From assembly GCF_002833405.1 (NCBI RefSeq), contig NZ_CP025135.1, forward strand, positions 601,501-665,500: 64,000 nucleotides of DNA. The letters are read 5' to 3'. A program made the position numbers and the translations under genes. This stretch comes from Planococcus sp. MB-3u-03. GTDB lineage: Bacteria; Bacillota; Bacilli; Bacillales_A; Planococcaceae. This document shows positions 1,964 through 42,793 of the stretch, in pieces; the stretch's first letter is position 1; the number at the start of each line of letters is the position of its first letter. The notes under the pieces were generated by a model. That model saw only the letters and a list, made by a program, of their open reading frames with translations. It did no database searches and was not told the DNA's origin.

Positions 1964-3952
1964 ATGAGCAGAGGGAAGCTGTGGATGATCGGGCTTGGCG
2001 CGGCACTTGCGCTTGCGGCGTGTTCGGACGAGGAAACGGAAGCGCCGGTGCCGGAAGAAGCGGAACCGGAGACGGTCGCATCGCCGGCACCCCGCGCAGA
2101 GCAGTTCATGGAATTGTGGCAGGCGGGCGAATACGAAACGCTGTACGAGGAATTTTTGACGGAGCGTGCCAAAGAGGCATTCGGGGAAGAGACCTTCATT
2201 GAATGGCAAGTGGAACTCGAAGAGCAATTATCGCTGACAGAGCGCGAGATCGATTGGGAATTGGGCGAAGAACCGTGGCTGAAAAACGAGCCGGCGGATA
2301 TCCCGCTGGCGATTTCGATGGACAGCGTCATCGGCGAGATCGAATTCGATAAGACGCTGAGCTTTGTCTATGAGGAGGCGGAAGAAAACGCAGAAGGCGA
2401 ATGGTTCGCGGAATGGGATCCTTCCTTCATCCTGCCGAACCTGTCGGAAGGCGATAATGTCTCCGTGCAGATCAGCGATACCGAACGCGGTGAGATCGTC
2501 GACCGCAACGGCAAGGTCATCGCCGGCAATACGGATGCCTATGAGATCGGCGTCGTGCCGGGGAATTTCGACCGCGACGATTACACGGAGCGGCTCGCGG
2601 GGCTTTTGGATTTGTCCGTCGAAGACATTGACGCAGAACTCGAAAAGCCGTGGGTCGAGCCGCATCATTACGTGCCGCTCGGAACCGTCCGGCCGGACCG
2701 CGAAAAATTGAACCGGCTGTTTGCGATTCCCGGGACCAAGCGCACGAAAGTGACGATGCGCCATTACCCGTACGGCGAATCGATGGCGCATTTGACCGGC
2801 TACATCGCGCCGATCACCGCTGAACAGCTGGAAGAGCGCAGCGGCCAGGGATACGGCCAAGGCGATATCGTCGGGCGGGAAGGCTTGGAAGAGATCTTTG
2901 AAACCGAGCTGCGCGGAAAACGCGGCGGCAAGATCTTGATCGAAAAGACCGCACAGAACGAAACGATTACCGCCGTCGACAACTCCTCGGCAGCCGGCGA
3001 GACGATCGAACTGACGATCGATGCCGATTTGCAGCAGGAAATCTATAAAGAGATGGGCAAGAAACCGGGCACTGCCGCGGCGGTCGACCCGTACACGGGC
3101 GAGACGCATGTGTTGGTCAGTTCGCCGGCCTACGACCCGAACGACTTCATTCCGGGAATCAAGGAAAGCCGTTTCCGCCAGCTGGCCAACGATCCGGACC
3201 AGCCCTTCTTCAACCGGGCAGCGGCAGCGTATCCACCGTCTTATGTGATGCAGCCAATCACTGCGGCCGTGGCCATGAAGCAAGGGACGCTGGATCCTGC
3301 GGAAGGCATCGAGATCGACGGGGAGACGTGGCAGAAATTCCCGTCCTGGAACGATTTCCGCATCACCCGCCCGAATCCGGGTGTTTCGAATCCGATCGAC
3401 ATGCAAAAAGCGCTCGTCCATTCCGACAGCATCTACTTTGCGATCCAGGCGAGCAATATGCCGGACGATAGCTTTTTAGAAGGCTTGAATGAATTTGGCT
3501 TCGGCCAGGCATTCGATTACCCGGTGCCGCTAGCGGCTTCGCAAATTTCGGAAAGCGGAACGTTCGGCTCGGAAGGCCAGCTCGCGAGTTCCGCCTCCGG
3601 GCAGGGCCAAGTGCGCGTCAACATCCTCCACGCGGCACTCATGTACGGCACCTTTTTAGCGGATGGCGACATGAAAAAGCCGGTCCTGTTCGGGGACGCT
3701 GAAGAAGAAAACCTGAAGCAAGAGCTTCTGAGCGCCGAGCAAGCGGAATTGGTCCGCACGGCACTCGTCCAAGCCGGTGAAGAAGACGGCCATGATTTTG
3801 CCGGCAAGACGGCCGTCATCAAAACCGGTGACGGCGACATGGGCTGGTTCGCCGGTTACGACCCGAAAGTCGGCAATTTGAGCGCGACGGTCATGATGGA
3901 AGATGAGGAAGACGCAGCGGCCATTGCCGGCGCATTGTTCAGCGATGACTAA
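1964..3952 (+). CDS. penicillin-binding-protein homologue with lost catalytic motifs (pseudoenzyme)
   Basis: A 662-residue lipoprotein with signal peptide and lipobox L17-A-A-C20. It has a MecA_N/NTF2-like region (about 30-150), a PBP dimerisation region (about 160-330) and a transpeptidase domain (about 350-660), the order of class B PBP3/PBP2a-type enzymes. Every active-site motif is changed. The usual PPGSTFKP reads PPSYVMQP (residues 424-431), so the nucleophilic Ser is Tyr427 and the Lys is Gln430. SxN reads S487-D-S489. KTGT reads K615-T-A617, with two residues missing; a stray KTG at 620-622 is displaced. The frame is open throughout. The start has GGAGGGG upstream. A catalytically dead, structural or beta-lactam-sensing role is inference. 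Confidence 0.85.
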   Translation: MSRGKLWMIGLGAALALAACSDEETEAPVPEEAEPETVASPAPRAEQFMELWQAGEYETLYEEFLTERAKEAFGEETFIEWQVELEEQLSLTEREIDWELGEEPWLKNEPADIPLAISMDSVIGEIEFDKTLSFVYEEAEENAEGEWFAEWDPSFILPNLSEGDNVSVQISDTERGEIVDRNGKVIAGNTDAYEIGVVPGNFDRDDYTERLAGLLDLSVEDIDAELEKPWVEPHHYVPLGTVRPDREKLNRLFAIPGTKRTKVTMRHYPYGESMAHLTGYIAPITAEQLEERSGQGYGQGDIVGREGLEEIFETELRGKRGGKILIEKTAQNETITAVDNSSAAGETIELTIDADLQQEIYKEMGKKPGTAAAVDPYTGETHVLVSSPAYDPNDFIPGIKESRFRQLANDPDQPFFNRAAAAYPPSYVMQPITAAVAMKQGTLDPAEGIEIDGETWQKFPSWNDFRITRPNPGVSNPIDMQKALVHSDSIYFAIQASNMPDDSFLEGLNEFGFGQAFDYPVPLAASQISESGTFGSEGQLASSASGQGQVRVNILHAALMYGTFLADGDMKKPVLFGDAEEENLKQELLSAEQAELVRTALVQAGEEDGHDFAGKTAVIKTGDGDMGWFAGYDPKVGNLSATVMMEDEEDAAAIAGALFSDD

Positions 3953-3968
3953 ACAGGGAGAGGTGGCC

Positions 3969-4913
3969 ATGAAAAGCTTTGCGACGCACGACGAACAGCT
4001 CGCGATCTTGAAAAGCCGCGGGCTCGTTATTGAAGACGAAGCGGCCGCAAGACGCGTGTTGTCGCGCGATAATTATTACGCGCTCATCGACGGCTACAAG
4101 GAGCCGTTCCTTGAGCGCAGTGAGACGAGAAACCCGTACGGCGAAGAACTGTACGAAGCTGGGACGGCGTTCAATCATATCCTCGCGCTGTATCAATTCG
4201 ACCGCAAACTGCGTTTGTTATTGCTCGGCGAACTCTTGAAGTTCGAGCGCAGCATCAAATCGAAGCTCGCCTACCGGTTTTCCGAACGCTTCCCGGAAGT
4301 CGACAGCTTTCTCGACAGCGCGAATTACAGCCCGGACAACATCCATTTTCACGAACGCGACCGCATCACGGCGACGCTCAACAATTTGATCGAAAGCCAT
4401 CGGAAGCGCCACCGCGTGCGCTATCCGGAGCTCCGCGAGTTCTACGAAAAACATAAGAACTTGCCGCTATGGGTGCTCGTCAATTTCCTGTCACTCGGCC
4501 AGATCACGAATTTTTATACGGTCATCGACCAAGACTTGCGCACGCGCATCGCGCAGGACTTCGCAGACGACGCGGGCGAACACGTCATCACACTGAGTGC
4601 AGCGGAACTCGACGAGATCCTGTCGATCGCGTTTCCGTTCCGCAATAAAGCAGCACATGAAGAAGTGCTGTATTCGTTCCGGTTAAGGTCTCCGCTTGAA
4701 CTGGAGAAACTCGAAGCGCAACTGCATCAGGAAAAAGGCTACATCACCCGTGGCACGACAGCATCACTCGTTAAGGTGCTGAAAGTGGTGGCGCCAGCAG
4801 AAGAGTATGAAGTTTTCACTCGGGAGCTGTTGGAATTGATCCGGAGCTTGGAAGAAGCCTTGCCGGAAAGGCCGTATGTCTGGATTATGAAAGATGCGGG
4901 ATTCCGCGAATGA
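3969..4913 (+). CDS. Abi_2 family HEPN protein (AbiD/AbiF-like)
   Basis: A 314-residue protein of the Abi_2 family (PF07751), known for phage abortive infection by AbiD/AbiF-type proteins. The N-terminal YYALIDGYKEPF resembles the family's YYRLSGYWKPF. The C-terminal part has RNKAAH, the RxxxxH signature of HEPN ribonucleases. I chose the ATG at 3969 because GGGAGAGG precedes it and it lies 16 bases after the PBP-like gene's stop; an upstream in-frame start at 3903 would overlap that gene. The tight spacing suggests co-transcription with the inactive PBP homologue. RNase activity is inferred from the motif. Confidence 0.75.
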   Translation: MKSFATHDEQLAILKSRGLVIEDEAAARRVLSRDNYYALIDGYKEPFLERSETRNPYGEELYEAGTAFNHILALYQFDRKLRLLLLGELLKFERSIKSKLAYRFSERFPEVDSFLDSANYSPDNIHFHERDRITATLNNLIESHRKRHRVRYPELREFYEKHKNLPLWVLVNFLSLGQITNFYTVIDQDLRTRIAQDFADDAGEHVITLSAAELDEILSIAFPFRNKAAHEEVLYSFRLRSPLELEKLEAQLHQEKGYITRGTTASLVKVLKVVAPAEEYEVFTRELLELIRSLEEALPERPYVWIMKDAGFRE

Positions 4914-5009: not shown

Positions 5010-5935
5010 TTGTTGGACTGGCTCGTTACGAAGTCCAGTGAAGACAAGTTTCTCAAAGCGATGCAGAAATCCAAAAAACAGATGGCCAAAACCTATGAAG
5101 GAAAAGATGTCGACGGGCTTGATTGCAGCGAAGTGAGGATTCCGCGGCGCGACGGTTCGTCCATTCGCCTGCGCATATATAAACCGGTGCAGCACGACCG
5201 CCGGCTGCCCGGGGTATTATGGATTCACGGGGGCGGTTACGCGCAAGGGACGCCGGAGATGAGCGGGGCTATGTACAAACAACTCATCGAGACCAGCGGA
5301 TGCGTCATCGTCGCACCGGATTACCGTTTATCGATCGATGCACCGTACCCCGCAGCGCTGGACGATTGCTACGACGCGCTGAAGTGGATGAAAGAGCATG
5401 CCAAAGAGCTGGGCATCCGGGACGCTCAATTGATGGCCGGCGGGGAAAGCGCAGGCGGCGGCTTGACCGTCGCGCTCAGTTTATACGCGAGAGACCAAGG
5501 AGAGGTCCAGCTCGCTTTTCAAATGCCGCTGTACCTGATGATTGACGACCGGATGGAGACGGAATCGGCCCGCGACAATAACGCTTACGTGTGGAATTCC
5601 GACATGAACCGCTGGGCGTGGAAAGCCTATCTCGGCGGGTTGTATGGAAAGAAGTGCCGGTGTATGCAGCGCCTGCCCGGGCCAATGATTTCAGCAATTT
5701 GCCGCCGGCTGTCACATTCGTCGGGGATATCGAGCCTTTCCATGACGAAACCATCCAATTGGTCGATCGTTTAAGGGGAGCAGGGGTGCCAGCCGATTTT
5801 AAGCTCTTCAAAGGCGCTTATCACGGCTTTGATATTATCCATCCGAAAGCGGACATCAGCCAGAGAGCGCGGAAGTTTTTGATGGAGTCTTTTAAATATG
5901 TGACAGAACATTATTTTGTTGAACAGAAGAACTGA
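5010..5935 (+). pseudogene. alpha/beta-hydrolase (HSL/acetylhydrolase family), one frameshift
   Basis: The first part (5010 to about 5648) has the oxyanion-hole HGGGYAQG and nucleophile elbow GGESAGGG of hormone-sensitive-lipase-type esterases. The second part, in another frame to 5935, supplies the acid (GDIEPFHDE) and the histidine (YHGFDIIHP). The frame breaks in the A-run at 5648-5650. One extra A there gives LYGKEVPVYAAPARA and one continuous enzyme of about 308 residues, so this is either a sequencing error or a very recent mutation. The start is uncertain: TTG at 5010, or an in-frame ATG at 4977 followed by a stop at 5004. Confidence 0.7.
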
Positions 5936-6093: not shown

Positions 6094-6123
6094 AAACCAA
6101 AAGTTTTGACTGGGGGGAGAAAG

Positions 6124-6405
6124 ATGAAGGGGATGGAAGAAACTGAAGACTGGCGTTTTAAAATTGCCAATCGGGAAGCATTGATCGGTGTAGCGTTAGC
6201 GGTCTTCAATTTTATCTGGTGGTTTGGTTTTGCTTATGGTTTAGGATCGCGGCCAGTCGAAGAATATACGTATGTGTTCGGGCTGCCTAGCTGGTTCTTC
6301 TACAGTTGTGTGGTAGGATTCGTCACGATTGCCATATTGGTTATCATAGTTGTTCGCTTTTTCTTTAAAGAAGTGCCGTTTACAGAAGAGGGGGATGAGG
6401 TATGA
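6124..6405 (+). CDS. yhdT: YhdT family membrane protein (DUF997), PanF partner
   Basis: A 93-residue protein with two membrane segments (about 18-38 and 58-80), including the FNFIWWFGFAYGLG region typical of YhdT. YhdT precedes panF in many bacteria, including E. coli, and here the ORFs overlap by four bases (ATGA). It is thought to accompany the sodium/pantothenate symporter; its exact role is not established. The ATG at 6124 follows GGGGGGAG; an earlier TTG at 6106 is in frame but less likely. It is the first gene of the catabolic operon. Confidence 0.8.
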   Translation: MKGMEETEDWRFKIANREALIGVALAVFNFIWWFGFAYGLGSRPVEEYTYVFGLPSWFFYSCVVGFVTIAILVIIVVRFFFKEVPFTEEGDEV

Positions 6406-7895
6406 ACTGGCCTGTAATAATTCCGATGCTAGGGTTTCTGGTGATTATCTTCTTTATCGGTATTTGGTCTAGCCGAAAAACAGCCGCTTCTGGTGATGGC
6501 TTTATTCAAGATTATTTCCTGGGTGGTCGAGAGCTAGGCGGATTTGTTCTAGCGATGACTATGGTAGCCACTTATGGAAGCGCTTCCAGTTTCTTGGGTG
6601 GCCCAGGTACTGCCTATACGATGGGCTTTGGCTGGATTTTGCTAGCCATGTCCCAAGTAGTGACGGGTTATTTCGTATTAATGATTTTAGGGAAGAAATT
6701 CGCCATTTTGGCGAGGCGCTATAACGCGATCACTTTAGTGGATTTTTTGAAGATGCGCTATCAAAGTACAGCGGTGGTTCTGTTGTCTGCTTTTGCAATC
6801 ATCGTTTTCTTGTTCTCCGCAATGGCTGCCCAATGGATTGGCGGAGCGCGCCTTGTCGAGTCATTAACCGGGATTTCCTATAATACCGCGTTGTTCATAT
6901 TTGCCATTTCAGTATTGGTTTATGTAACAATCGGTGGATTCCGTGCAGTAGCTGTGACGGATGCGGTACAAGGTGCTGTAATGGTAGTAGGGACTTTCGT
7001 GCTTCTTGTAGCTGTAATCATTGCGGGAGGCGGCATCCCGAACATTATTGGAGATTTAGTCAGCGAGAATCCGAATCTAATCACCCCGTATGGGAATGAA
7101 GGAAATCTATCGAAAGCATATGTATCGTCTTTCTGGATATTAGTCGGGGTCGGGGTTGTGGGCTTGCCGCAAATTGCGGTTCGTTCCATGTCTTATAAAA
7201 GCTCTGTCTCGATGCACCGAGCGTTGATTATCGGAACTATCGTGACTGGGATCATCATGCTCAATATGCATTTAATCGGGGTCTTTGCACGGCCAATCCT
7301 TCCAGGGATTGAAGTAGGGGATACGGTGATTCCACTTATTTCAATGGAAGTTTTGCCGGCCTGGCTTGCCGGGGTTGTGCTTGCTGCCCCAATGGCTGCC
7401 ATTATGTCGACCGTGGATTCTTTACTGATCCTGGTCAGTTCGACTGTAGTAAAAGATGTGTATTTAAACTACATTAAGCCGGACGCCTCGATGAAAACCG
7501 TTAAACGGGCAAGTTTCGGAGTAACGGCAGTTCTGGGGATTATCGTCTATATGTTAGCGCTGAACCCGCCGGATCTTTTAATCTTCCTGAACCTTTTTGC
7601 TTTCGGTGGTTTGGAGGCGGCATTTATTTGGCCGATCGTCATGGGGCTTTACTGGAAATACAGCAATAAATACGGGGCCATTGCTTCGATGATTATGGGG
7701 ATATCAAGCTACATAGGCCTTCATTTCTATAATCAGGCGAACGGCAATTTGTTCGGCCTCCATACAGTGGCTTTGCCGGTTCTCCTATCGTTTTTAGCAT
7801 TTGTCATAGGAAGCCTGGCATTCGAGCGGAAAGCATATAGCTTTAAACAAGCGAGAAAGGAGCAATTAAAACATGAATACGCGACTGAAGAGTGA
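6402..7895 (+). CDS. panF: sodium/pantothenate symporter (SSF family)
   Basis: A 497-residue transporter of the sodium:solute symporter family with about 13 membrane segments, the PanF length. It has a YGSASSFLGGPGTAY segment near the start and GGFRAVAVTDAVQG in the middle, both characteristic of PanF-like SSF proteins. Together with YhdT this points to sodium-driven pantothenate uptake, although SSF specificity cannot be fixed from sequence alone. It is translationally coupled to yhdT, and its 3' end overlaps the next gene by about 23 bases, so the uptake and catabolic genes form one transcript. Confidence 0.82.
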   Translation: MNWPVIIPMLGFLVIIFFIGIWSSRKTAASGDGFIQDYFLGGRELGGFVLAMTMVATYGSASSFLGGPGTAYTMGFGWILLAMSQVVTGYFVLMILGKKFAILARRYNAITLVDFLKMRYQSTAVVLLSAFAIIVFLFSAMAAQWIGGARLVESLTGISYNTALFIFAISVLVYVTIGGFRAVAVTDAVQGAVMVVGTFVLLVAVIIAGGGIPNIIGDLVSENPNLITPYGNEGNLSKAYVSSFWILVGVGVVGLPQIAVRSMSYKSSVSMHRALIIGTIVTGIIMLNMHLIGVFARPILPGIEVGDTVIPLISMEVLPAWLAGVVLAAPMAAIMSTVDSLLILVSSTVVKDVYLNYIKPDASMKTVKRASFGVTAVLGIIVYMLALNPPDLLIFLNLFAFGGLEAAFIWPIVMGLYWKYSNKYGAIASMIMGISSYIGLHFYNQANGNLFGLHTVALPVLLSFLAFVIGSLAFERKAYSFKQARKEQLKHEYATEE

Positions 7896-9099
7896 TTCTT
7901 ATACAAGAGACCGCAAAGCGGTAATCGAATTGACACAACAATTGGTACAGATTCCGAGTGTTTATAGAGGTGAAGGTGTAGAAGGCGGCAACGAGGAAAA
8001 AGTAGCGAATTACGTCGCCGAGCATTTAAAGGGAATTGGAATCGAGACGCATATTGAAGAAGTCGTTCCAGGACGGCCAAATGTGATCGGCATCATTGAT
8101 TCTGGAAAGCCAGGAAAAACTTTATTGTTTGAAGGGCATACGGATGTCGTGACGGAAGGAGACCGCAAGGCTTGGAAATACGATCCGTTCGGTGCGGAAA
8201 TTGTGGATGGCCGCATGTATGGACGAGGCACGAATGATACGAAAGGAAATCTGGCGTGTATGATTACAGCGGTCCACTCGATTTTACAAGATGAAGAAGA
8301 ATTCAGCGGCAAAATCATCTTGTGTATTCCTTGTGATGAAGAAGGCCTCATGCTTGGTATCAAACATTTCATAAAGCAAGGGTGGGCAAAAGGTGTAGAT
8401 GGTGCCATTATCTGTGAGCCAGAAGAAAATAATGTATGCATCGCGCAACGGGGTGCCATTCGTTTACAAGTTGATTTTCACGGAAAAATGGCCCACGGCG
8501 CAATCTCTTGGAGCGGTATCAACCCGAATTGGCGCTTGGCACGTTTCATTACGAAAATAGAAAAACTTGAAAAGGCTGAGACAAAACGCCTCGGGGAAGA
8601 CCCTTATCTAAAATGGCCTTCGATAACCCCCACGATTATCCAGTCCCCTGTAACTGGAGATGCACAGATTAATGTCATCCCTGACCATTGCCGCTTGACG
8701 CTCGATATCCGCACGGTACCGGAGCAAAATCACGACATATTGCTCCAAACAATCGAAGGAATCGTTTCTGATATGAAAGCGGAGGATTCGGATTGCCGGA
8801 TCGATTTGACGGTACTCGATAATCGCCCACCCACCGCAACAGCTAAAGAAGATGAAGTGGTAAAGGCAATCTATGGCGCGGTTGAGGAAATTACCGGCAA
8901 GGAACCTATTTACAACGGGGTGCCAGGAGCAACGGATGGAACTTTCCTACACATGGAGGGCATTCCTATTGTCACCATTGGTGCTGGAGATCGTGAAATT
9001 CCTCACCAACTCAATGAATATGTAGACATTGAAGAACTCGCTGAGACTACGGCCATCTTTAAAGAAGCCGCACTTCGATTCTTGAATGGGCGGGTGTAA
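7873..9099 (+). CDS. M20 family metallo-amidohydrolase, candidate pantothenase
   Basis: A 408-residue ArgE/DapE-type protein of the M20 peptidase family. The metal ligands and catalytic residues are visible: H89-T-D91, D122 in GTNDTKG, E156-E157 in CDEEG, E182/E184 in CEPEE, and H378 in IPHQLNE. M20 enzymes cleave amide bonds beside a carboxylate. In this operon the likely substrate is pantothenate, giving pantoate and beta-alanine (EC 3.5.1.22). That assignment is inference from context; the studied Pseudomonas pantothenase works through an acyl-enzyme, so this would be an unrelated solution. AAAGGAG precedes the ATG, which lies inside the end of panF. Confidence 0.85.
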   Translation: MNTRLKSDSYTRDRKAVIELTQQLVQIPSVYRGEGVEGGNEEKVANYVAEHLKGIGIETHIEEVVPGRPNVIGIIDSGKPGKTLLFEGHTDVVTEGDRKAWKYDPFGAEIVDGRMYGRGTNDTKGNLACMITAVHSILQDEEEFSGKIILCIPCDEEGLMLGIKHFIKQGWAKGVDGAIICEPEENNVCIAQRGAIRLQVDFHGKMAHGAISWSGINPNWRLARFITKIEKLEKAETKRLGEDPYLKWPSITPTIIQSPVTGDAQINVIPDHCRLTLDIRTVPEQNHDILLQTIEGIVSDMKAEDSDCRIDLTVLDNRPPTATAKEDEVVKAIYGAVEEITGKEPIYNGVPGATDGTFLHMEGIPIVTIGAGDREIPHQLNEYVDIEELAETTAIFKEAALRFLNGRV

Positions 9100-9104
9100 A
9101 CAGA

Positions 9105-10178
9105 ATGGGGTCATATAAAATTGCTATCATCGAAGGAGACGGTATCGGAAAAGAAGTAATGGCGCAGGCGTTGCGCATATTGTGCGAACTGGAACAGTTG
9201 GAACCAGAAATTTCATTTCAGTTAGAACAATTGGATTGGAGTTCGGATTATTACTTGGAGCACGGACGCATGATGCCCGAGAATTGGCGGGACATTCTGA
9301 TGCCGCAAGATGCCATTTTGTTTGGGGCCATTGGAGACGCTCGAGTTAAAGATGAAGTGACCATCTGGGAGTTGATCATGCCGATCCGCAAGGAATTCCG
9401 CCAGTATATCAATTACCGGCCAGTTCAATCATTGCCGAATATCGCTTCTCCGCTGGAAGACAAAACAGGAATTAATTTTTCGATCTTCAGGGAAAATGCC
9501 GAAGGGGAATATTCGAATAGCGGTGGCCGGATGTTTAAAGGGGAGCCATCGGAAATGGCGATTCAAAATACAATCATGACCCGTACAGGAATTGAGCGAA
9601 TCACTCGTGCAGCCGGAGAGTATGCCAGAAAACATGGGAAGTGCAAAGTGACGTGTGCTACAAAATCGAATGCGATCATTCATACGAACACATTATGGGA
9701 CGAATGTGTAGAGCGCGTCATGCGCGAGGAATTTCCGGAACTGGAATTAGAGTCGTATTATATCGATGCTTTGGCCGCTTATTTCGTCCAGCGTCCGAAA
9801 AGCTTTGAAGTGGTGCTCGCTTCTAATCTATTCGGTGATATTTTATCGGATCTCGGGTCAGGGATAGTCGGTGGCCTGGGCTTATCGCCTTCAGGGAATA
9901 TCAATCCTGAAAAAGACTATCCATCAATGTTCGAACCAGTCCATGGCTCTGCTCCGGATATAGCAGGGTTGGGAATCGCTAATCCGATAGCTCAGATTTG
10001 GTCAGCTGCTTTACTGCTGGAGCATATAGGAGAAACAGAAGTTGCAGGCAAAGTGATTAACGCGATACAGGCAGTGCTGGAAGAGAACCGTGTATTGACA
10101 AAAGATATCGGCGGGCAAGCGACAACAGAGGAGATGGGCACAGCCATTATCGAAAAATTGAACGCACAATACACATAA
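9105..10178 (+). CDS. isocitrate/isopropylmalate family dehydrogenase, candidate 3,3-dimethylmalate dehydrogenase
   Basis: A 357-residue beta-decarboxylating dehydrogenase of the tartrate/D-malate (TtuC) branch. Visible features are GDGIGKEV at the start, the metal- and substrate-binding stretch from DALAAYF to NLFGDILSD, and the NAD-site region EPVHGSAPDIAG. In the pantoate route, 3,3-dimethylmalate is oxidised and decarboxylated to 2-oxoisovalerate (EC 1.1.1.84) by an enzyme of this type. The specific substrate is inferred from the operon; D-malate or tartrate are alternatives. It starts 5 bases after the amidohydrolase. Confidence 0.82.
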   Translation: MGSYKIAIIEGDGIGKEVMAQALRILCELEQLEPEISFQLEQLDWSSDYYLEHGRMMPENWRDILMPQDAILFGAIGDARVKDEVTIWELIMPIRKEFRQYINYRPVQSLPNIASPLEDKTGINFSIFRENAEGEYSNSGGRMFKGEPSEMAIQNTIMTRTGIERITRAAGEYARKHGKCKVTCATKSNAIIHTNTLWDECVERVMREEFPELELESYYIDALAAYFVQRPKSFEVVLASNLFGDILSDLGSGIVGGLGLSPSGNINPEKDYPSMFEPVHGSAPDIAGLGIANPIAQIWSAALLLEHIGETEVAGKVINAIQAVLEENRVLTKDIGGQATTEEMGTAIIEKLNAQYT

Positions 10179-10191
10179 AGGGCGTGTGGAA

Positions 10192-10938
10192 ATGGAATTG
10201 AATGAAAAAGTAGTGGTCGTCACCGGTGCTGGCGGCGGAATGGGAAAAGCTATCAGCGAAAAGCTATTAGCGGAAGGTGCACGTGTGATTGGGATGGACT
10301 TGAAAGAAGAATCGATGAAAGACCAGGATCATTCACAATTCACGGCTGTGGCCGTTGATATTTTGGATGAAGAAGCGGTAGCAAGTGCTTTTGCGGAAGC
10401 TCATAAACAATCTGGAAAAATAGACGGTCTAGTGAACGCCATCGGAATGGCTCAGTCTGCATCTCCAATAGAAGACGTTTCCCTAGAGCTTTGGCATAAG
10501 TTGATGAACGTTAACGTCACGAGCTTGTTTCTTACTTCTAAAGAGGCAGCCAAGTATATGAAAAAGCAAAATCAAGGATCCATTATAACGATTGCTTCTA
10601 TTTCAGCCGTCCGTCCAAGACCCGGCCTTCAGGCATATATCGCTTCAAAAGGAGCAGCAGAAAGTTTTTCACGCGCATTGGCGATCGAACTTGCACCGCA
10701 TGGAATCCGGGTGAACACGGTACATCCCGGCCCGACAGACACGGGCATGCTCGGCCAATTTGCTGCATCGGGAGCGGATGTGGAAACAACAAAAAAACAA
10801 ATTTTCGCCGATAGTGTGCCAATGGGGAGGCTCGTGGCCCCTAGTGACATTGCAGAATCAATTTCCTATTTAATATCAGATAGAGCGGCGATGGTGACCG
10901 GAGCAGTCCTTCATGTGGATGGAGGTAGAGGCTTATGA
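10192..10938 (+). CDS. SDR family oxidoreductase, candidate pantoate 4-dehydrogenase
   Basis: A 248-residue classical short-chain dehydrogenase. It has the cofactor motif T11-G-A-G-G-G-M-G18, the active site Y149-x-x-x-K153, HPGPTDTGM after strand six, and the C-terminal VDGG. D38 at the end of the second strand favours NAD. In the pathway it would oxidise pantoate at C4 to 4-dehydropantoate (EC 1.1.1.106), an inference from position. ATG 10192 fits the AAAGGG site better than the in-frame GTG 10186. The stop overlaps the next start by four bases (ATGA). Confidence 0.8.
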   Translation: MELNEKVVVVTGAGGGMGKAISEKLLAEGARVIGMDLKEESMKDQDHSQFTAVAVDILDEEAVASAFAEAHKQSGKIDGLVNAIGMAQSASPIEDVSLELWHKLMNVNVTSLFLTSKEAAKYMKKQNQGSIITIASISAVRPRPGLQAYIASKGAAESFSRALAIELAPHGIRVNTVHPGPTDTGMLGQFAASGADVETTKKQIFADSVPMGRLVAPSDIAESISYLISDRAAMVTGAVLHVDGGRGL

Positions 10939-12410
10939 GTAAAGAGGAGATGAATTCCGAAAAAGTTCAACGGATTCCACTCTTAATAGATGGACAATGG
11001 ATTGGAGAAGAGCGTGAAGATGTCTATTCTGTTTATGCCCCAGCCAATGGGCATAAGTTAGCGGAAATTGTAAGGGGCAATGGACAAGATGTGGAACGGG
11101 CAGTTCAAGCCGCGCAGACAGCATTTGAAAGTGATGCCTGGCAAAATATTAAACCGTTCGAGCGCGGGCAATTGCTCGTCCGTTTGGCGCAGCATATCCG
11201 TGACCATCGCGATGAATGGGCAGCGCGTGAATGCCAAGACGTTGGCAAGCCTTTGAGCCAAGCATACGCAGATGTAGAAGCGGCAGCGCGTTACTTCGAA
11301 TTTTATGGTGGCGCAGCTGATAAAGTGGCAGGGGAAACCATCCCGATAGAAAATGGGCTTTTAAATGTCACGGTATTGGAACCTGTGGGCATCACCGTCC
11401 ATATCGTTCCATGGAATTATCCACTGCAAATTATTGCGCGAAGTGTGGGTGCAGCTCTTGCCACCGGAAATGCCGTCATCGTAAAAAGCGCTGAAGATAC
11501 ACCTTTATCTGCCCATGCGCTTGCAGAATGGTTTGCTGCTAGTGAACTGCCGAAGGGAATTTTTCAGCATCTTACAGGGTTAGGGCAGGAAGTCGGAGCG
11601 CCTCTTGTAGCGCATCCAGGCATAAACCATGTAACGTTCACTGGATCGGTTCAAACCGGTATCTCAGTCATGAAAGCAGCTGCAGAAAATGTGGTTCAAT
11701 CAACATTGGAACTGGGGGGCAAATCACCGAACATTGTCTTCGCTGACGCTGATTGGAACAAAGCAGTCGAAGGGGTTACGCGGGCAATCATACAAAATGC
11801 CGGGCAGACTTGCTCGGCTGGCTCAAGACTATTGATTGAAGAAAGCTGCAAAGCGGAGTTTTTAGACAGGCTGCGCCAAAAGTTTGAGTCGCTTCAAATA
11901 GGCCCGGGGGAAAGCGATGCCGATATCGGCCCCATTTTAAATGAAAAGCAATTCAAGCAAATTATGGGACGTATTGATGAAGCGAAGAAGCAGGGCAAAA
12001 TCATCGCTGGCGGGCGTGCAGTCAATCCCGAAGGTGGAGCAGGTGGATTCTATATTGAACCGACGATCATCGATGGTTTAGAGCCGCATTGTTCTGTGGC
12101 ACAAGAGGAAATTTTCGGCCCCGTACTGTCTGTTTTCACTTTTAAGTCAGCTGAAGAAGCAATCAATTTAGCTAACAGTACGGATTACGGACTCGTTGCT
12201 GGAGTTTGGACAAAAGACATAGACGTTGCTCACACTGTCGCTGCGAAAGTAAAGGCTGGACAAGTATTTATCAATAATTACGGAGCGGCGGGTGGCATTC
12301 AAATGCCATTTGGCGGTTACAAAAAAAGCGGAATCGGACGGGAAAAAGGCTTCGTCGCGCTCCGTAATTACTTGGAAATCAAAAATATAGCCGTGAAGTA
12401 TGGAAATTAG
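10935..12410 (+). CDS. aldehyde dehydrogenase, candidate 4-dehydropantoate dehydrogenase
   Basis: A 491-residue ALDH superfamily enzyme with general base E259 (LELGGKSP), catalytic C293 (NAGQTCSAGS) and the PWNYPLQ cofactor region. It would convert 4-dehydropantoate to 3,3-dimethylmalate (EC 1.2.1.33), the substrate of the dehydrogenase two genes upstream; this is inferred from the gene set. It is translationally coupled to the SDR (4-base overlap). It closes the forward five-enzyme run; the PucR regulator lies opposite with convergent orientation. Confidence 0.8.
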   Translation: MSKEEMNSEKVQRIPLLIDGQWIGEEREDVYSVYAPANGHKLAEIVRGNGQDVERAVQAAQTAFESDAWQNIKPFERGQLLVRLAQHIRDHRDEWAARECQDVGKPLSQAYADVEAAARYFEFYGGAADKVAGETIPIENGLLNVTVLEPVGITVHIVPWNYPLQIIARSVGAALATGNAVIVKSAEDTPLSAHALAEWFAASELPKGIFQHLTGLGQEVGAPLVAHPGINHVTFTGSVQTGISVMKAAAENVVQSTLELGGKSPNIVFADADWNKAVEGVTRAIIQNAGQTCSAGSRLLIEESCKAEFLDRLRQKFESLQIGPGESDADIGPILNEKQFKQIMGRIDEAKKQGKIIAGGRAVNPEGGAGGFYIEPTIIDGLEPHCSVAQEEIFGPVLSVFTFKSAEEAINLANSTDYGLVAGVWTKDIDVAHTVAAKVKAGQVFINNYGAAGGIQMPFGGYKKSGIGREKGFVALRNYLEIKNIAVKYGN

Positions 12411-12444
12411 AAGATGAATTCTCAAGCGGACGATTTGGTACGGA

Positions 12445-14061
12445 TTATAGCAAAATCCGATAGGCTTTCACTGCACTTTCAAGAGCTAAGCGGTTCGCTG
12501 GTGCCATGAAATCCGCTCCAAGAATCATTTCCAACTTTTCGAGTCGGTGGTAAAGTGTCTGCCGAACAATAAATAGGCGTTCGGCAGTATCTTTTTTAGA
12601 ACCATTGGATTCAAGGTAAACGGCTAAGGTTTCAAATAAATTGCTGTCCATTTTATTATCGTATTCAAAAATCGGAGCTAAATAACTGTCGGCATACGTT
12701 CTTAAAAAATCAGGGTCCTTAATTTCCAATAATATTTTATAGAGTCCAAGGTCTTCATAAAAAGGCGATTCCGCTACTCCTTTTTGACACATTTCCTCGA
12801 CTTTCAATGCTTCGGCATAAGCTTTATTGGCTTGAGAGAACGCCTGGTATACCGAACTGATGCCGAATTGGCATAACTGGCCATCGATATAATTGCTGCC
12901 ATTCATTTCCCGGATTTGCTCAATTGCTTGAAGTGACCTGCTTTTCTCTTCCTTCACCCGATTGTCTGCCAAAAAACAAGCAATTGCGGTAATGCTGTTC
13001 TTGCTGCAGGAAAGAGCAGGGAAAAAGCCGCAGCGCTTCAGCAGGGTCCGGATGCTCATCAAACGCTGAAGTTTGATTTCTTCCCAATCGCTCGGGTGGA
13101 GGTTCTTTTCAGAGATAGCCAGTTGAATATGGAAAATACGATAATACATATTCTTACTTGGGACTGGAACAAAGGTTTGCAGGTCTTCATCATCTACAGG
13201 ACGTCCATTGATCAGGTTGCGAACAAAGTCATCTTCGTTGTTTTGTTTACGCTCCTCGATGGTCCGATCCCTCAACAGAATTTGGGCAATAGCGAGTGCC
13301 GCGCGGTCAAGGATGAGGAAGGCAAAATCTTCTGGAACTGTCTGGCTCCTTTGAAGACACAGATGTCCGAGAACTTGGCCAAGGCCTTCTATCGGGAGTA
13401 TCGCGAACGATTGCCCACCCACGACAAGAGAATTTGGCTCTGCGTAATGGCCTGAGGACTGTTCCAATAAAAGGCGTATTTGGGTTTCCCACACTTTGCT
13501 TTCAGAAGGATAATAATAGAGTTTTGGTTTTTCGGTTATAAAAATAGCACTTTGCTTGAAGAAATGATTCAATTCTTGAAGTATTTTCAGGATTCCATTA
13601 TGCGTTAAGGACAATGAGTTAAATTTTCGGGACATAGTATCCAATTGCGAAAGCATTTGATGATGTTGATTGATGATATATGTATGTAAATCCTGTGTGA
13701 TATCAACAAACCGGACTTTCTTTTCGAAGATGATAATCGGAAATGCGTGAAAATCCGCCAACTTGATGATTTCCTCAGGGATTTCTTCGAAATAGGGGCC
13801 AATTTCAATGCACAAACAAGAGACTTGGCGATCGATCAATTTTTTTACGTAATGAAATTGAGTCATTAGGTCAAGCTGAAGGCCCACACCTGTGGTTAAA
13901 ATGAGTTCACCCCCGTTAATCAGAGAATCTAAATCCTGCACTTCAAGGACGTGGGACCACTTCACTTCCCGGTCCAAGCCCTCGTGGCCAGCAATTAACC
14001 TTGCACCTTGAAACGATTTTCTTTCCAGCACATGCCGGATTGTCAATGTTAGTTTCTCCAT
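12445..14061 (-). CDS. PucR family transcriptional regulator
   Basis: A 538-residue regulator. The N-terminal PucR domain (PF07905) runs from about residue 8 to 125 (VLEVQDLDSLINGGELILTT) and the C-terminal PucR HTH_30 domain ends the protein (ERLFIVRQTLYHRLEKLE). Members usually sense catabolic substrates and switch on degradation operons. It sits between the pantoate arm and the beta-alanine arm, divergent from the latter, so it probably controls both. I chose ATG 14061 because GGAGG sits 8 bases ahead of it; the ATG at 14076 actually overlaps that site. Confidence 0.85.
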   Translation of the reverse strand: MEKLTLTIRHVLERKSFQGARLIAGHEGLDREVKWSHVLEVQDLDSLINGGELILTTGVGLQLDLMTQFHYVKKLIDRQVSCLCIEIGPYFEEIPEEIIKLADFHAFPIIIFEKKVRFVDITQDLHTYIINQHHQMLSQLDTMSRKFNSLSLTHNGILKILQELNHFFKQSAIFITEKPKLYYYPSESKVWETQIRLLLEQSSGHYAEPNSLVVGGQSFAILPIEGLGQVLGHLCLQRSQTVPEDFAFLILDRAALAIAQILLRDRTIEERKQNNEDDFVRNLINGRPVDDEDLQTFVPVPSKNMYYRIFHIQLAISEKNLHPSDWEEIKLQRLMSIRTLLKRCGFFPALSCSKNSITAIACFLADNRVKEEKSRSLQAIEQIREMNGSNYIDGQLCQFGISSVYQAFSQANKAYAEALKVEEMCQKGVAESPFYEDLGLYKILLEIKDPDFLRTYADSYLAPIFEYDNKMDSNLFETLAVYLESNGSKKDTAERLFIVRQTLYHRLEKLEMILGADFMAPANRLALESAVKAYRILL

Positions 14062-14208
14062 TGTATCGTCCTCCATAAAGTAAAGTTTCCCGTATATGTA
14101 TTTGACAAAATGTAAATTGAAAGAAGACGGAATTATTTGTAAAGTACACTTAGTAGTCTAAAGAATTACGTGGAAAAGACAATAAGCATGAGACAGGAGG
14201 AAGTAAAG

Positions 14209-15675
14209 ATGACTTCAGTAGATACAGAAAAGAAAACTTTGATGAACTTCATCGGTGGACAATGGGTAAAATCAAATACAGACAAATATGAAGAAGTGCC
14301 AAATCCGGCAACAGGTGAATTGTTAGCAGAAGTGCCGATTTCGACTTCCGAGGATTTGGAAACTGCGGTCGCTTCGGCTAAGGAAGCTTTCTCTACGTGG
14401 AAAAAAACACCGGTGCCGCAACGTGCGCGGATCATGTTCAAATATCAGCAATTGCTCGTCGATCATTGGGATGAGCTGGCGACAATCATTACGAAAGAGA
14501 ACGGCAAAAACTTCAATGAAGCTTACGGAGAAGTGCAGCGGGGCATCGAATGTGTCGAGTTCGCTGCGGGTGCGCCGACTTTAATGATGGGGCAGCAATT
14601 GCCGGACATTGCAACCAATGTAGAATCGGGCATGTACCGATATCCGATCGGTGTAGTAGGCGGCATCACGCCGTTCAATTTTCCGATGATGGTGCCGTGC
14701 TGGATGTTCCCATTGGCGATTGCGAGCGGAAACACATTCATCCTAAAGCCTTCTGAACGGACGCCTTTACTTGCCAACCGCCTGGCAGAACTGTTTCAGG
14801 AAGCCGGCTTGCCAGATGGTGTTTTCAACATCGTCCATGGCGCCCATGATATTGTTAATGGCATTTTAAGCCACCCCGATATTCCAGCCGTTTCGTTCGT
14901 TGGCTCCCAGCCGGTCGCTGAGTATGTCTATAAAACAGGCACCTCCCATGGCAAACGGATCCAAGCGCTGGCGGGAGCGAAGAACCATACAATTGTCATG
15001 CCGGATGCAGATATGGATTTGACGATTACGAATGTCATCAACGCTTCCTTCGGTTCTGCGGGAGAGCGCTGCATGGCTTGTGCAGTCGTGGTCGCTGTAG
15101 GAGATGCCGCGGATGAACTGTCGAAAAGGCTAGTAGCAGAAGCTGATCAAATGACGATAGGCAATGGGCTCGATCAAGATGTTTTCCTTGGGCCGGTGAT
15201 CCGCGATTCCCATAAAAAGAAAACGCATGCTTATATCGAATCCGGCATCGAAGAAGGCGCGACTTTACTGCGGGACGGCCGAGGAGATCAAAGTCCTGAA
15301 GGCGGCTATTTTGTCGGACCGACCATCTTTGATGAAGTTACAGAAAATATGAAGATTTGGAAAGAAGAAATTTTTGCCCCGGTTCTATCGATTGTACGGG
15401 TGGAAACCTTGGATGAAGCCATCGAGTTAACCAACCAATCCGATTTTGCGAACGGCGCATGCTTATTCACTGATAGCGCAAAAGCAATCCGCAAGTTCAG
15501 GGAAGAGATAGATGCCGGCATGCTCGGAATCAATTTAGGCGTCCCTGCCCCAATGGCTTTCTTTCCTTTCTCGGGCTATAAAAAATCATTTTATGGAGAT
15601 TTGCATGCAAATGGACGCGATGGGATTGAATTTTACACCCGCAAAAAGATGGTAACAGCCCGTCATGCGTTCTAA
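14209..15675 (+). CDS. mmsA: CoA-acylating (methyl)malonate-semialdehyde dehydrogenase
   Basis: A 488-residue ALDH of the MmsA/IolA subgroup, which makes acyl-CoA rather than free acid. Catalytic C288 sits in [10 protein letters not shown], and the ending [14 protein letters not shown] is typical of the family. It would turn malonate semialdehyde, formed from beta-alanine, into acetyl-CoA and CO2 (EC 1.2.1.18). The start at 14209 follows GGAGG; an upstream in-frame start at 14170 is unlikely. It is divergent from the PucR gene and followed after 21 bases by the aminotransferase. Confidence 0.88.
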
Positions 15676-15696
15676 ATGAAAAGGGAGGCACGTGCA

Positions 15697-17053
15697 ATGA
15701 AGTCAGCAAAAGAAAAGGCACTCACTTTAGCGGAAAAAGACAAAGAAAACCTATGGCATCAAATCTCCTCATATAATGAAAAAAAGCGCCCAATGGTCGT
15801 AGAAAAGGGAGAGGGCGCGTGGATTACTGACCACGAAGGCAATCGTTACCTGGATGGGATGTCGGGTCTATGGTGCGTCAATGTCGGATATGGACGGGCG
15901 GAGCTGGCTGATGCAGCGGCAGAACAAATGAAAAGCTGGCGTATGTCCCGATGACGCAAAGCCACGAACCGGCCATTCTTCCGCTGAGAAATTGAACGAG
16001 TTGCTCGGCGGCGAGTATAAAATCTTCTATTCCAATAGCGGTTCCGATGCAAACGAAGTAGCGTTCAAGCTAGTGAGGCAATATCATCAGCAAAACGGAG
16101 AACCTTCACGCTTTAAATTCATTTCCCGCTACCGTGCATATCACGGAAGTTCCATGGGGGCTTTATCAGCAACAGGCCAAGCCTTGCGCAAGTATAAATA
16201 CGAACCCCTGTCGCCAGGCTTTTTGCACGTGGCACCACCTGACAATTACAGGCGGCCTCCAGGGCAATCGGTTGAAGATTATAATCTTCAGCGGGCCCAG
16301 GAATTTGAAGAGAAGATTATTTGGGAACAAAAAGAGACCATCGCAGGTATTATTATGGAACCGCTCATTACAGGAGGCGGCATTTTGATCCCGCATCCGG
16401 TCTATGTCGAGAAAGTACAGGAAATCTGCAAACGGCACGGGGTTCTGCTCATTATAGATGAAGTGATCTGTGGATTTGGAAGGACCGGGAAAGCTTTTGG
16501 CCATCAACATTTCAACATCAAGCCCGACATCATCACGATGGCAAAAGGAATGACCAGTGCGTATTTGCCGCTTTCCGTTACGGCAATCCGCAAAGACATC
16601 TACGACCAATTCGATACCGAGGAAGAAAATAGCCACTTCCGGCATATCAATACATTTGGGGGCAATCCCGCAGCTTGTGCCGTCGCGCTGAAAAACATTG
16701 AAATCATTGAACGCGAGAGCCTGATAGAACGTTCCAGTGAACTCGGGGAGCGCTTGTTGAAAGAGTTGGCGAATTTAACAGAACATCCGTACGTGGGTGA
16801 TGTGCGTGGCTTAGGATTTCTGCTGGGCATTGAACTGGTGGAAAATAAAGAAACAAAAGAACCGGCAACAGCTGAGCGCGTAGCCAAGATCATAAACGGC
16901 TGTAAAGAGCATGGCCTGATCATTGGGAAAAACGGGGACACGGTGGCTGGATTCAATAATGTACTGACAATCAGCCCGCCGTTATCGTCTACAGATGAAG
17001 ACTTTGAATTTATCGTGGCGGTTCTTCAAAAAGTGTTCAAAGAAAATGAATGA
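15697..17053 (+). pseudogene. class III aminotransferase (beta-alanine:pyruvate type), two frameshifts
   Basis: The translation matches omega-amino-acid/beta-alanine-pyruvate aminotransferases: YLDGMSGLWCVNVGYGR, YSNSGSDANEVAFKL, IIDEVICGFGRTG and the PLP lysine in TMAKGMTSAYLP. The frame breaks twice, in the A-run 15931-15934 and at TT 15979-15980. Adding one base at each restores MKKLAYVPMTQSHEPAILSAEKLN and a protein of about 450 residues. Both defects are single-base losses in short runs, so sequencing error is likely; if real, the beta-alanine arm is cut. ATG 15697 follows GGGAGG. Expected reaction: beta-alanine plus pyruvate to malonate semialdehyde plus alanine. Confidence 0.78.
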
Positions 17054-34618: not shown

Positions 34619-37600
34619 ATGATGATGGAAGGGGTCGAAGCGTTTAACGAAGAGTTTTTGGAGCTTGCGGCGATCGAGGTGCTGCAGGAGTTGGGATATG
34701 ACTATATACACGGACCTGAACTGCACGAGTCAGGGATGCGCAAAGACTACCGGGAAGTAATCATCGAATCGAAATTGCGGGATGCGCTCGGGTTTTTGAA
34801 TCCCGGTATCCCGGGAGAAGCGATTGAAGAAGCTTACCGGCGGATCGTCGCATTTCCTAGTCCGGCATTGATTGAAAATAACCGGGAGTTCCATGAATTG
34901 CTTGTCGATGGGATTGATGTAACCTTCCGGCGCGACGGAGAAATCCGGACGGAAAAAGTATTCATCGTCGATTTTGAAAATATTACACGGAATGACTTTC
35001 TGGTGGTCAATCAATTTACAGTGATCGAGCATGAGAACCGCCGGCCGGATTTGCTTGTTTTCGTCAACGGTTTGCCGCTGGTGGTCATCGAATTGAAGAA
35101 CTTGTCCGATGAAGCTGTCGGTGTTGAACAGGCATATAACCAAATCCAAACGTATAAAACAGAAATTCCTTCCTTGTTCCGCTATAACGCGTTCTCGATC
35201 ATTTCGGATGGCCTTCATGCGAAAGCGGGAACGGTGACATCTAATTTAGAGCGGTTCATGAACTGGCGCACGATTGACGGAGATACGGTCGAGCCTCTTG
35301 ATACACCTCAATACGAAGTGATGCTTCGCGGCTTGCTCGAACCATCGCGCTTTCTCGATGTAGTGCGGAACTTCACGCTTTTCCAGGAAACGCGGGACGC
35401 GGAATTGGACGCAAATGGCCGGAAAATCGGCGAACGTAAATCCATCATCAAAATCATGGCGGCTTATCACCAGTACTATGCGGTGAAAAAAGCGGTGGAA
35501 AACACGAAGCAAGCGGTATCTGCGGAAGGCGACCGGAAAATCGGCGTCATCTGGCATACCCAGGGGAGCGGGAAAAGCTTCTCGATGGTGTTCTATACCG
35601 GGGCGCTTGTCACCGAATTGAACAACCCGACGATTGTCGTCGTCACGGACCGGAATGATTTGGACGATCAATTGTTCAATACGTTTGCGAAATCCGCCGA
35701 TTTATTGCGCCAGGAACCAAAACAGGCGGACGTGCGGAAGTTAGCTGATGCCGGCGGGCAAGCCGGTCAGAACGGCTTATACGATCTCCTCAATGAGCGG
35801 GAAGCGGGGGGCATCATTTTCACGACGATCCAGAAGTTCGCCCCAATTGAAGGCGAGATGCCTGCACTGACCGACCGGCGGAACGTCATCGTTATCGTTG
35901 ATGAAGCGCACCGTAGCCAATACGGTTTCGACGCCAAGACGAATCTCGACACAGGAGAGCAAAAATTCGGCTATGCGAAGTATTTGCGCGATGCGCTACC
36001 GAATGCTTCATTCATCGGATTTACCGGCACACCGATCGAATTCGAAGACAAGTCGACACCTGCCGTTTTCGGCAATTACATCGACATCTACGATATGACC
36101 CAAGCGGTGGAAGACGAAGCAACGGTTAAAATCTATTATGAAAACCGGATTATCCGGCTGGATGTCGATGATGCGGAATGGGACAAAATCGATGAAGCGT
36201 TCGAAGAAATCGTTGAAGGCCATGAAGACACGGCGCGGGAAAAATATAAGTCGCAATGGTCCAGGCTCGAAGCGGTCGTCGGCTCCCCGAACCGCTTGAA
36301 GATGCTTGCCAAAGACATTGTCGAGCATTACGAGACCAAGTCGAAATCGATGGCCGGAAAAGCGATGATCGTCACGATGAGCCGCAAAATCGCGGTACGT
36401 TTATACGATGAAATCATCGGGTTGCGCCCTGAGTGGCATAGTGACGATGTCGATAAAGGCGTCATTAAAGTCGTCATGACAGGCTCCGCTTCTGACGAGG
36501 AAAATCTTCAAAAGCATACCGGCGGCAAACAGCGGCGCGATACTCTGGCGAACCGCATGAAAGATCCGGCTGATGAATTGCAGCTGGTGATCGTGCGGGA
36601 TATGTGGCTGACTGGTTTTGATGTACCGTCGATGCATACGATGTATATCGATAAGCCGATGAAAGGTCATAACCTCATGCAAGCGATCACGCGTGTTAAC
36701 CGGGTCTTTAAAGACAAGCCGGGCGGGGCGATCGTCGATTACCTCGGTATTTTCGAAAGCCTGAAAAAAGCCTTGCGCCAGTATACCGACAAAGACCGGC
36801 AGACAACCGGCATCGATACCGATGCGGCCATCAGGGTCTTGCAGGAAAAGCTGGAAGTGCTGCAAGGCATGTTCCATCGTTTCGATTACTCGGCGTATAT
36901 GGGAACTGCCAATAAAGATCGCGCCATGGCAATCATCGGCGGCATGAACTATGTCCTTGGTATGCCAGAAGAAGAACAAAAAGACTTTAAGCAAGTGGCG
37001 ATGGAACTTGCAAAAGCCCATGTACTGGTCTCAGCAACGCCGGAAGGCATCGAAGTCAAGCCGCACGTTGATTATTTCAAATCAGTGCGCGCCACTTTAC
37101 AGAAGCTCGGCACAGGAAATGGAACGAAGCGTTCGCGTACGGAAATCGAAGCGCGCGTCGATCAGCTTCTCGAGAAGTCGATCATTTCACAAGACGTGGT
37201 CGACGTATTCGATTCACTCGGCATCGAACAGCCGGACGTCTCGATTCTGTCCGAACAATTCCTTGAAGAAATCCGCCACTTGCAGCACAAAAACGTTGCA
37301 GTGGAAATGCTCAAAAAATTGCTCGACGGCAAACTGAAAGTCATGGAGCGTTCAAACCTCGTGAAATCCGAACGCTATTCCGAAAAGCTGCAGCGGGCAC
37401 TTCAGAAATACCGCAACCAGGGTATTACGAATGTTGAGGTCATTGAAGAATTGATTCGTCTTGCATATGACATTAAAAAAGAAGATGACGCTGAAAACGA
37501 ACTTGGTTTGAACAAAGACGAAGTCGCTTTCTATACGGCTTTGACTGATAACGAAAAAGTAAATGAAATGATGGGCGACGAAACGCTTATCAAAATCGCC

Positions 37601-37938: not shown

Positions 37939-38028
37939 AAATAATTTGTCAGAATTAATTGGGAATTTATTTATAGAATGAGTCAATACTATCCAATTTA
38001 AAATTACATTTTTTAAGGGGACTCGTTT

Positions 38029-39555: not shown

Positions 39556-39587
39556 ATTATTTAATTAGAATGAATGGAGGAGTTTAA

Positions 39588-40091: not shown

Positions 40092-40172
40092 TCAAATTTA
40101 AATAAACGCCCTAGGGTGATTTTAAAGTTAATGCGAACTTAAGGAATAGCAAAATACGCGGGGAGAATTGAT

Positions 40173-42685: not shown

Positions 42686-42793
42686 TCGGATTTCTAAATT
42701 ACATTCTTATGTCAATAGCAATTTATTTTAATAGTCATAATTAAATCTAAAAGAAACCATATTTAGTGACCTTAAATGTTACTAAGAGAGCGT

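Follow-up and report, generated by a model that had tools for sequence, protein, structure and literature searches.

A predicted locus for pantothenate uptake and catabolism in Planococcus sp. MB-3u-03 and its exchangeable front ends in Bacilli

Introduction

The bacterial degradation of pantothenate (vitamin B5) was described for Pseudomonas fluorescens in biochemical studies of the 1960s and 1970s, which defined a pantothenase, a pantoate 4-dehydrogenase, a dehydropantoate dehydrogenase and a dimethylmalate dehydrogenase. The P. fluorescens pantothenase works via a pantoyl-enzyme. Pantoate is a 2,4-dihydroxy-3,3-dimethyl acid; once an amide hydrolase has released it, its breakdown calls for dehydrogenases acting on an alcohol and on an aldehyde, and for an oxidative decarboxylase of the malate type. 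To our knowledge, these four pathway enzymes have no assigned sequence, and among the open-access papers listed for this subject, judged by title and the beginning of the abstract and with subscription papers and most preprints outside this scope, we found none that assigns genes to these steps. In passages of a 2023 publication, the protein identity of the P. fluorescens pantothenase was called unknown (PMC10393543). Here we describe a locus in a 64,000-bp stretch of DNA (termed the window; positions 601,501 to 665,500 of contig NZ_CP025135.1) from the 3.6-Mb genome of Planococcus sp. MB-3u-03 (13 contigs; G000). From its gene content and from comparison with related genomes we infer that it quite likely serves pantothenate uptake and catabolism.

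Results

The core of the locus is a head-to-tail run of six genes at positions 6124-12410 of the window. They encode a small YhdT-like membrane protein, the symporter PanF, a hydrolase of the M20 family, a dehydrogenase of the isocitrate/isopropylmalate type (IDH), a short-chain dehydrogenase/reductase (SDR) and an aldehyde dehydrogenase (ALDH; Table 1). panF overlaps the end of yhdT, the M20 gene the end of panF and the ALDH gene the end of the SDR gene, and the other gaps comprise 5 and 7 bp, the latter being the maximum. The six genes form one tight operon. On its 3′ side, a pucR gene is located on the opposite strand, followed by mmsA and a gene for a class III aminotransferase. The presence and position of these genes and the coupling from yhdT to the ALDH gene by overlaps or gaps of at most 7 bp agree with an earlier note on this DNA. 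PanF scored far above the cut-off of its model and is encoded in the same coupled run as M20, IDH, SDR and ALDH. One candidate enzyme class per step of pantothenate breakdown is thus encoded beside a pantothenate transporter. The earlier note had claimed exactly one fitting enzyme class for each step, which holds with the reservation that the aminotransferase gene is not intact, its frame being broken (15676-15954 and 15992-17053). In a close relative (L038), this gene reads through 459 codons without a break; in the window genome, no second gene scored above the cut-off of this aminotransferase family. panC is present elsewhere in the window genome and, therefore, the locus is not required for obtaining the vitamin.

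Based on these assignments, each of which is probable when taken singly, we propose the following pathway. PanF, together with YhdT, would import pantothenate with sodium, and M20 would release (R)-pantoate and beta-alanine from it by hydrolysis. The SDR would oxidize pantoate at its C4 alcohol to the aldehyde, which the ALDH would oxidize further to (R)-3,3-dimethylmalate. Oxidative decarboxylation of the latter by the IDH-type enzyme would yield 2-oxoisovalerate, which could enter valine metabolism, while the aminotransferase, whose frame is broken in this assembly, and MmsA would convert beta-alanine to acetyl-CoA. The locus is probably under the control of PucR; pucR also adjoins these genes in another locus (L164, see below). 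The region upstream of yhdT and the pucR-mmsA intergenic region had one exact 9-mer in common and nothing longer, and scans for promoters and terminators gave chance-level numbers.

To see how far this organization is conserved, we analyzed the M20 gene and its surroundings in related genomes. An orthologue with at least 74% identity was present in 48 of 200 genomes of the family Planococcaceae, the window genome included, and nothing lower was detected at E-values up to 1e-60. The neighbourhoods of the 47 orthologues other than the window's own were fetched. In 43 of them, IDH, SDR and ALDH genes were located on the strand of the M20 gene, usually directly downstream (in L056 several kb away), and over all M20 loci fetched, including those from other families, this was the case for 57 of 84. 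The grouping of the genes is more than chance. The adjacent transporters of the 47 family loci were of the Opp-type ATP-binding cassette (ABC) class in 35 cases, PanF in eight and another sodium symporter (SSS28) in three, with none on one short contig. yhdT-panF-M20 was combined with IDH-SDR-ALDH in six same-family loci (genera g1 and g4), while L040 and L041 carry yhdT-panF-M20 without the three dehydrogenase genes.

Genes for a sodium symporter (SSS15) and an amidohydrolase (AmHyd3), in some cases also for a C45-family hydrolase, lie near panF-M20 or near amidase/pucR-aminotransferase-mmsA in L217, L039, L040, L041, L043 and L045. The C45 family includes beta-alanyl-amine hydrolases, and these genes may represent a further beta-alanine feeder.

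In the class Bacilli, 398 genomes were searched, of which 45 had a strong M20 match (at least 56% identity) and three a weak one (34-38%). IDH at E-values up to 1e-110 was detected in 43 of the 45 strong-M20 genomes (all except G321 and G371) compared to 16 of the 353 others; these counts are not independent, since 23 of the 45 genomes belong to one genus. Outside the family, M20 loci were fetched for 37 of 39 genomes with a strong match, G396 and G483 being left out. Their transporters were of the energy-coupling factor (ECF) type in 33 loci, SSS28 in three and PanF in one (L112). The latter, from another family, has the order panF-M20-SDR-ALDH with no IDH nearby. Fourteen of the 37 loci contained IDH, SDR and ALDH in full within the fetched stretch, whereas 17 ECF loci contained none of the three; in four of these genomes that were checked, an IDH locus is located elsewhere, again with SDR and ALDH (L176-L179). 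A gene that was judged by eye to encode a GlcD-type oxidase linked to flavin adenine dinucleotide lies near module genes in L112, L120, L122 and L161, and this oxidase might replace IDH in oxidizing a 2-hydroxy acid.

As a control, 20 IDH loci were fetched, of which ten had the full IDH-SDR-ALDH module, two a part of it and eight neither SDR nor ALDH. One of the IDH loci without M20 nearby (L164) has the order pucR, aminotransferase, mmsA, yhdT, panF, amidase-signature hydrolase, IDH, SDR, ALDH. This amidase occurred in nine of 146 genomes of its family, L164's own included; this is a third family within the Bacilli. Seven of the nine amidase loci showed the arrangement yhdT-panF-amidase-IDH-SDR-ALDH; in L218 it is yhdT-panF-amidase-IDH, and in L217 the amidase gene adjoins pucR-aminotransferase-mmsA. 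In eight of the nine, therefore, the place that M20 takes in the window, after panF and before IDH, is filled by an amidase-signature hydrolase unrelated to M20. A pantothenase role predicts just such an exchange of one amide hydrolase for an unrelated one. The check named in the earlier note, whether the gene set is conserved next to panF, thus had a positive outcome in six same-family loci, in L112 as panF-M20-SDR-ALDH, and in seven amidase loci.

In L137, a complete ECF locus, the gene order is sigma-54 activator, IDH, ALDH, SDR, EcfA, EcfA′, EcfT, S component, S58 hydrolase, M20. The ALDH shares about 31% identity with that of the window and therefore represents the same enzyme class from another branch. 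When the L137 S component was compared with all PDB chains at E-values up to 10, only 4rfs_S (3.5e-9) and 6zg3_C (0.0035) matched. 4RFS is PanT of L. brevis and 6ZG3 is ECF-PanT, for which passages of the corresponding paper report pantothenate transport and three residues important for binding (PMC7755397). With respect to these residues (W64, R95 and N131 in L. brevis numbering), every one of the 33 S components of the M20 loci retains Arg95 and Asn131 and has Phe in place of Trp64. The ECF S component points to pantothenate as the putative substrate, independently of PanF.

In four further loci (L161, L162, L163, L165; three of them from the genus of the window), genes for a tripartite ATP-independent periplasmic (TRAP) transporter are located directly upstream of IDH-SDR-ALDH. 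None of the four showed a match to the amidases used as queries; in L161 and L162 the neighbouring frames were also read. Because TRAP transporters carry organic acids, uptake of pantoate itself is a natural guess for these loci. In L162, a gene judged by eye to be ilvD-like (dihydroxy-acid dehydratase) lies upstream of TRAP-IDH-SDR-ALDH; 2-oxoisovalerate is also the product of IlvD.

Hydrolases and transporters are thus exchanged around a constant set of genes, and IDH-SDR-ALDH behaves as a plug-in module. In relatives, the module occurs with other front ends. An amidase-signature hydrolase replaces M20 in some; S58 accompanies a PanT-like ECF transporter or an Opp-type ABC transporter in others; and elsewhere the transporter is a different sodium symporter or of the TRAP type. 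We lean towards regarding these loci as a system by which Bacilli may feed on the vitamin part of coenzyme A, composed of a constant SDR-ALDH-IDH set, at least five types of transporter, two unrelated pantothenases, a ThnT-like pantetheine hydrolase and an ECF transporter used for feeding.

The IDH-type enzyme scored about 8 bits below the equivalog cut-off of TIGR02089 for tartrate dehydrogenase; the closest solved chain is 3flk, a tartrate dehydrogenase/decarboxylase. This closeness to tartrate dehydrogenases would suit an alternative in which the module degrades some other 2,4-dihydroxy or malate-like acid, the hydrolases cut its amide, and neither the PanF-like nor the ECF transporters are strictly specific. 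The TRAP- and Opp-linked forms, in which the module is not bound to pantothenate transporters, would suit it as well. Within the IDH sequence, positions 87, 89 and 91 are among those that most sharply separate the 68 module sequences compared from the 17 others, many of the module rows being near relatives (L148, L187, L185_5646 and the short loci L152-L159 were excluded). Val/Ile, Glu and Ile occupy these positions in 67, 66 and 67 of the 68 module sequences, and Leu, Gly and Leu in 16, 15 and 14 of the 17 non-module sequences. The loop 87-91 presumably senses the substituent at C3 in enzymes of this family, and its change would fit a gem-dimethyl substrate, as would be expected for dimethylmalate. 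In a phylogenetic tree of IDH, built without translations that contained stops or were shorter than 300 residues and without near-copies (88% identity or more), 30 module and seven partial rows were placed apart from 16 non-module rows with a support of 81/92, which is below the threshold of the tool; the module row L148 and the partial row L187 fell outside the group.

A scan of genome contigs for the loop motif, biased to GC-rich codons, yielded 13 loci, four from Bacillota, seven from Acidobacteria and two from Gemmatimonadota. Among the nine non-Bacillota loci, SDR was present in eight (all distant, 29-39% identity), S58 in two and ALDH of this type in one, and we do not count them as members. 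IDHs with the same loop motif were noted in L192, L193, L194, L195, L197, L198, L200, L201 and L203, some of them with a sodium symporter or S58. The occurrence of such IDHs beside other genes in Acidobacteria and Gemmatimonadota is a further point in favour of another acid as substrate. Nevertheless, we consider this alternative unlikely: PanF and the PanT-like ECF transporter, unrelated to each other and both assigned to pantothenate, converge on the module, two unrelated amidases occupy the slot between panF and IDH, and pantothenate is the one common amide of a 2,4-dihydroxy acid known to us.

A second alternative concerns the hydrolase. A gene for an S58 hydrolase is linked to M20 in 65 of the 84 loci, and S58 was present in all 36 ABC-type genomes with loci examined (33 ECF, three Opp). 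Because the S58 family includes ThnT, it is possible, by analogy, that the linked S58 catalyzes the step from pantetheine to pantothenate. ThnT, according to passages of a paper on this enzyme, trims the pantetheinyl group to cysteamine only when it is attached to a carbapenem (PMC6097109). Among solved structures, however, nylon-66 hydrolase was the best match of the linked S58 (257 bits, ThnT 172 bits), which speaks against the pantetheine function. Since the sequence then gives no pantetheine role, S58 might instead be the true pantothenase where present, with some other amide, for example a derivative of beta-alanine, as the substrate of M20. The frequent S58-M20 linkage, the position of S58 beside SDR and IDH in two of the nine non-Bacillota loci, and a 40% identical M20 relative adjoining pyrimidine-catabolism genes on a Deinococcus plasmid are in line with this possibility. 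In contrast, at an E-value of 1e-30 no S58 match was obtained in six of the 45 strong-M20 genomes of the class, all of them of the symporter type (G000, G003, G022 and G252 with PanF, G261 and G347 with SSS28); the seventh symporter-type genome, G232, has an unlinked S58. The one S58-family gene of the window genome showed no match to the linked S58 in a direct comparison, and none is present at the window locus. In the symporter-type genomes without an S58 match, no linked hydrolase other than M20 lies between panF and IDH. S58 as the pantothenase in place of M20 is therefore quite improbable, and as a general pantothenase it is disfavoured by its absence from six of the seven symporter-type M20 genomes.

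That the locus merely salvages beta-alanine for coenzyme A synthesis or nitrogen, its dehydrogenases belonging to another pathway, is hardly credible: L040 and L041 with yhdT-panF-M20 and no module, the 17 ECF-S58-M20 loci without a module gene in the fetched stretch, and passages reporting that bacteria cleave pantothenate and reuse beta-alanine (PMC10393543) would allow it, but all six window genes are tightly coupled and the four genomes mentioned above, without the module beside M20, carry it elsewhere.

The M20 hydrolase of the window shares 95% identity with its Planococcus plakortidis counterpart and passes only the cut-off of a broad deacylase subfamily. Among the best 25 of 58 matching models, it missed the DapE/ArgE equivalog cut-offs, e.g., NF009557 with 182 versus 284 bits and TIGR01892 with 179 versus 298 bits. 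Its scores below every equivalog cut-off among these models and its presence in just 48 of 200 family genomes disfavour a function as the DapE or ArgE enzyme of the genome. H89, D91, D122, E156, E157, E182 and H378 are invariant in 29 M20 sequences; we take them to be the metal-site and catalytic residues of the family. A structure model (mean pLDDT 85.8, pTM 0.86) had its best fold match in DapE 7uoi. M20 relatives with 39-40% identity (L189, L190) lie beside preA and hydA on a Deinococcus plasmid and beside genes for an SDR, an MmsA-type protein and an ABC transporter on a Thermus plasmid, surroundings that are suggestive of beta-alanine chemistry.

Table 1. Genes of the predicted pantothenate locus, with positions in the window and the model scores behind each assignment.
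Gene product	Position	Strand	Support
YhdT-like small membrane protein (DUF997), PanF partner	6124..6405	+	PF06196, 105 bits
PanF, sodium/pantothenate symporter	6402..7895	+	TIGR02119 equivalog, 703 bits (cut-off 328, passed)
M20 hydrolase, proposed metal-dependent pantothenase	7873..9099	+	TIGR01910 (ArgE/DapE family), 271 bits (cut-off 218)
IDH-type, proposed (R)-3,3-dimethylmalate dehydrogenase (decarboxylating)	9105..10178	+	Best model TIGR02089, 462.0 bits (cut-off 470.4)
SDR, proposed pantoate 4-dehydrogenase	10186..10938	+	PF13561, 210 bits; NF005559, 232 bits (cut-off 215); place in module
ALDH, proposed 4-dehydropantoate dehydrogenase	10935..12410	+	PF00171, 528 bits; place in module
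PucR-type regulator, probable locus regulator	12445..14076	-	PF07905, 123 bits; PF13556, 65 bits
MmsA-type, proposed malonate-semialdehyde dehydrogenase (CoA-acylating)	14170..15675	+	TIGR01722, 625.6 bits (cut-off 448.5, passed)
Class III aminotransferase, piece 1, proposed beta-alanine aminotransferase	15676..15954	+	NF005812, 104 bits, model positions 4-78; early frame end
Class III aminotransferase, piece 2	15992..17053	+	NF005812, 615 bits (cut-off 488), model positions 98-449

Upstream of the yhdT start, an in-frame TTG is located at position 6106. An alpha/beta hydrolase at 5010-5935 is encoded in two overlapping frames (5010-5774 and 5591-5935) and is possibly another broken gene, and at 3903-4913 an Abi-like gene (AbiD/Abi_2) may serve phage defence. 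Further downstream, a type I restriction enzyme gene (34619-37840) is followed by a stretch of low GC content (about 32%; drop at 38000-44000), the first gene of which (38029-39555) had a weak SIR2-like match.

Discussion

The interpretation of the locus as one for pantothenate catabolism, put forward in the earlier note, gains support from the conservation of the gene set and from the independent PanT-like ECF transporter, and we consider it likely on these comparative grounds. Several observations weigh against it. The aminotransferase open frame is split in two by frame breaks in this assembly. Of the 84 M20 loci, 27 have an incomplete IDH-SDR-ALDH set and 75 no panF in the fetched stretch, and we know of no link to pantothenate for the Opp-type transporter of 35 of them. 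SDRs act more often on secondary than on primary alcohols, and Trp64 of PanT is replaced by Phe in all 33 S components. Searches of plasmids for proteobacterial versions gave 483 records for IDH and 25 for M20, and ten of 65 listed rows were examined; eight IDH relatives among them (49-52% identity) occur without the module in other contexts. By the queries used, none of these eight has both SDR and ALDH, an ALDH gene lies near IDH in L182 and L187, and four of their stretches were without annotation. Among the plasmid rows examined and the hits of the motif scan, no close version of the cluster was found outside Bacilli.

If pantothenate catabolism is the function, this modular system of Bacilli would give genes to four pathway enzymes, and the locus would provide one gene per step, including a metal-dependent pantothenase besides a second, unrelated one. 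These proteins would need names other than "tartrate dehydrogenase" and "succinyl-diaminopimelate desuccinylase". The genes would also help to recognize bacteria that destroy vitamin B5, and an ECF vitamin transporter would serve feeding instead of vitamin supply.

In comparison with pantothenate degradation in P. fluorescens, the window locus matches the order of reaction types with one fitting class per step, and the pantoyl-enzyme of the P. fluorescens pantothenase would be easier to reconcile with an amidase-signature enzyme than with the metal-dependent M20. PanF resembles the described symporters of TIGR02119 in score and in the yhdT-panF pairing but differs in sharing an operon with degradative enzymes. 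The ECF genes of relatives are like ECF-PanT of lactobacilli with respect to the S-component match and two of the three binding residues, whereas they are clustered with degradative enzymes and with their own EcfA, EcfA′ and EcfT, and have Phe instead of Trp64. Towards the tartrate/D-malate dehydrogenase group, the window IDH is close by its 462 bits to TIGR02089 and by the match to 3flk, but the module IDHs differ consistently at residues 87, 89 and 91, and SDR and ALDH, looked for in every case, mostly accompany them. M20 shares fold and metal-site residues with the DapE/ArgE deacylases and differs in reaching the broad subfamily cut-off only and in its patchy occurrence in the family. The linked S58 of relatives belongs to the same Peptidase S58 family as ThnT and the nylon hydrolases; ThnT acts on the carbapenem-bound group only, and the S58 proteins of relatives are closer to nylon-66 hydrolase.

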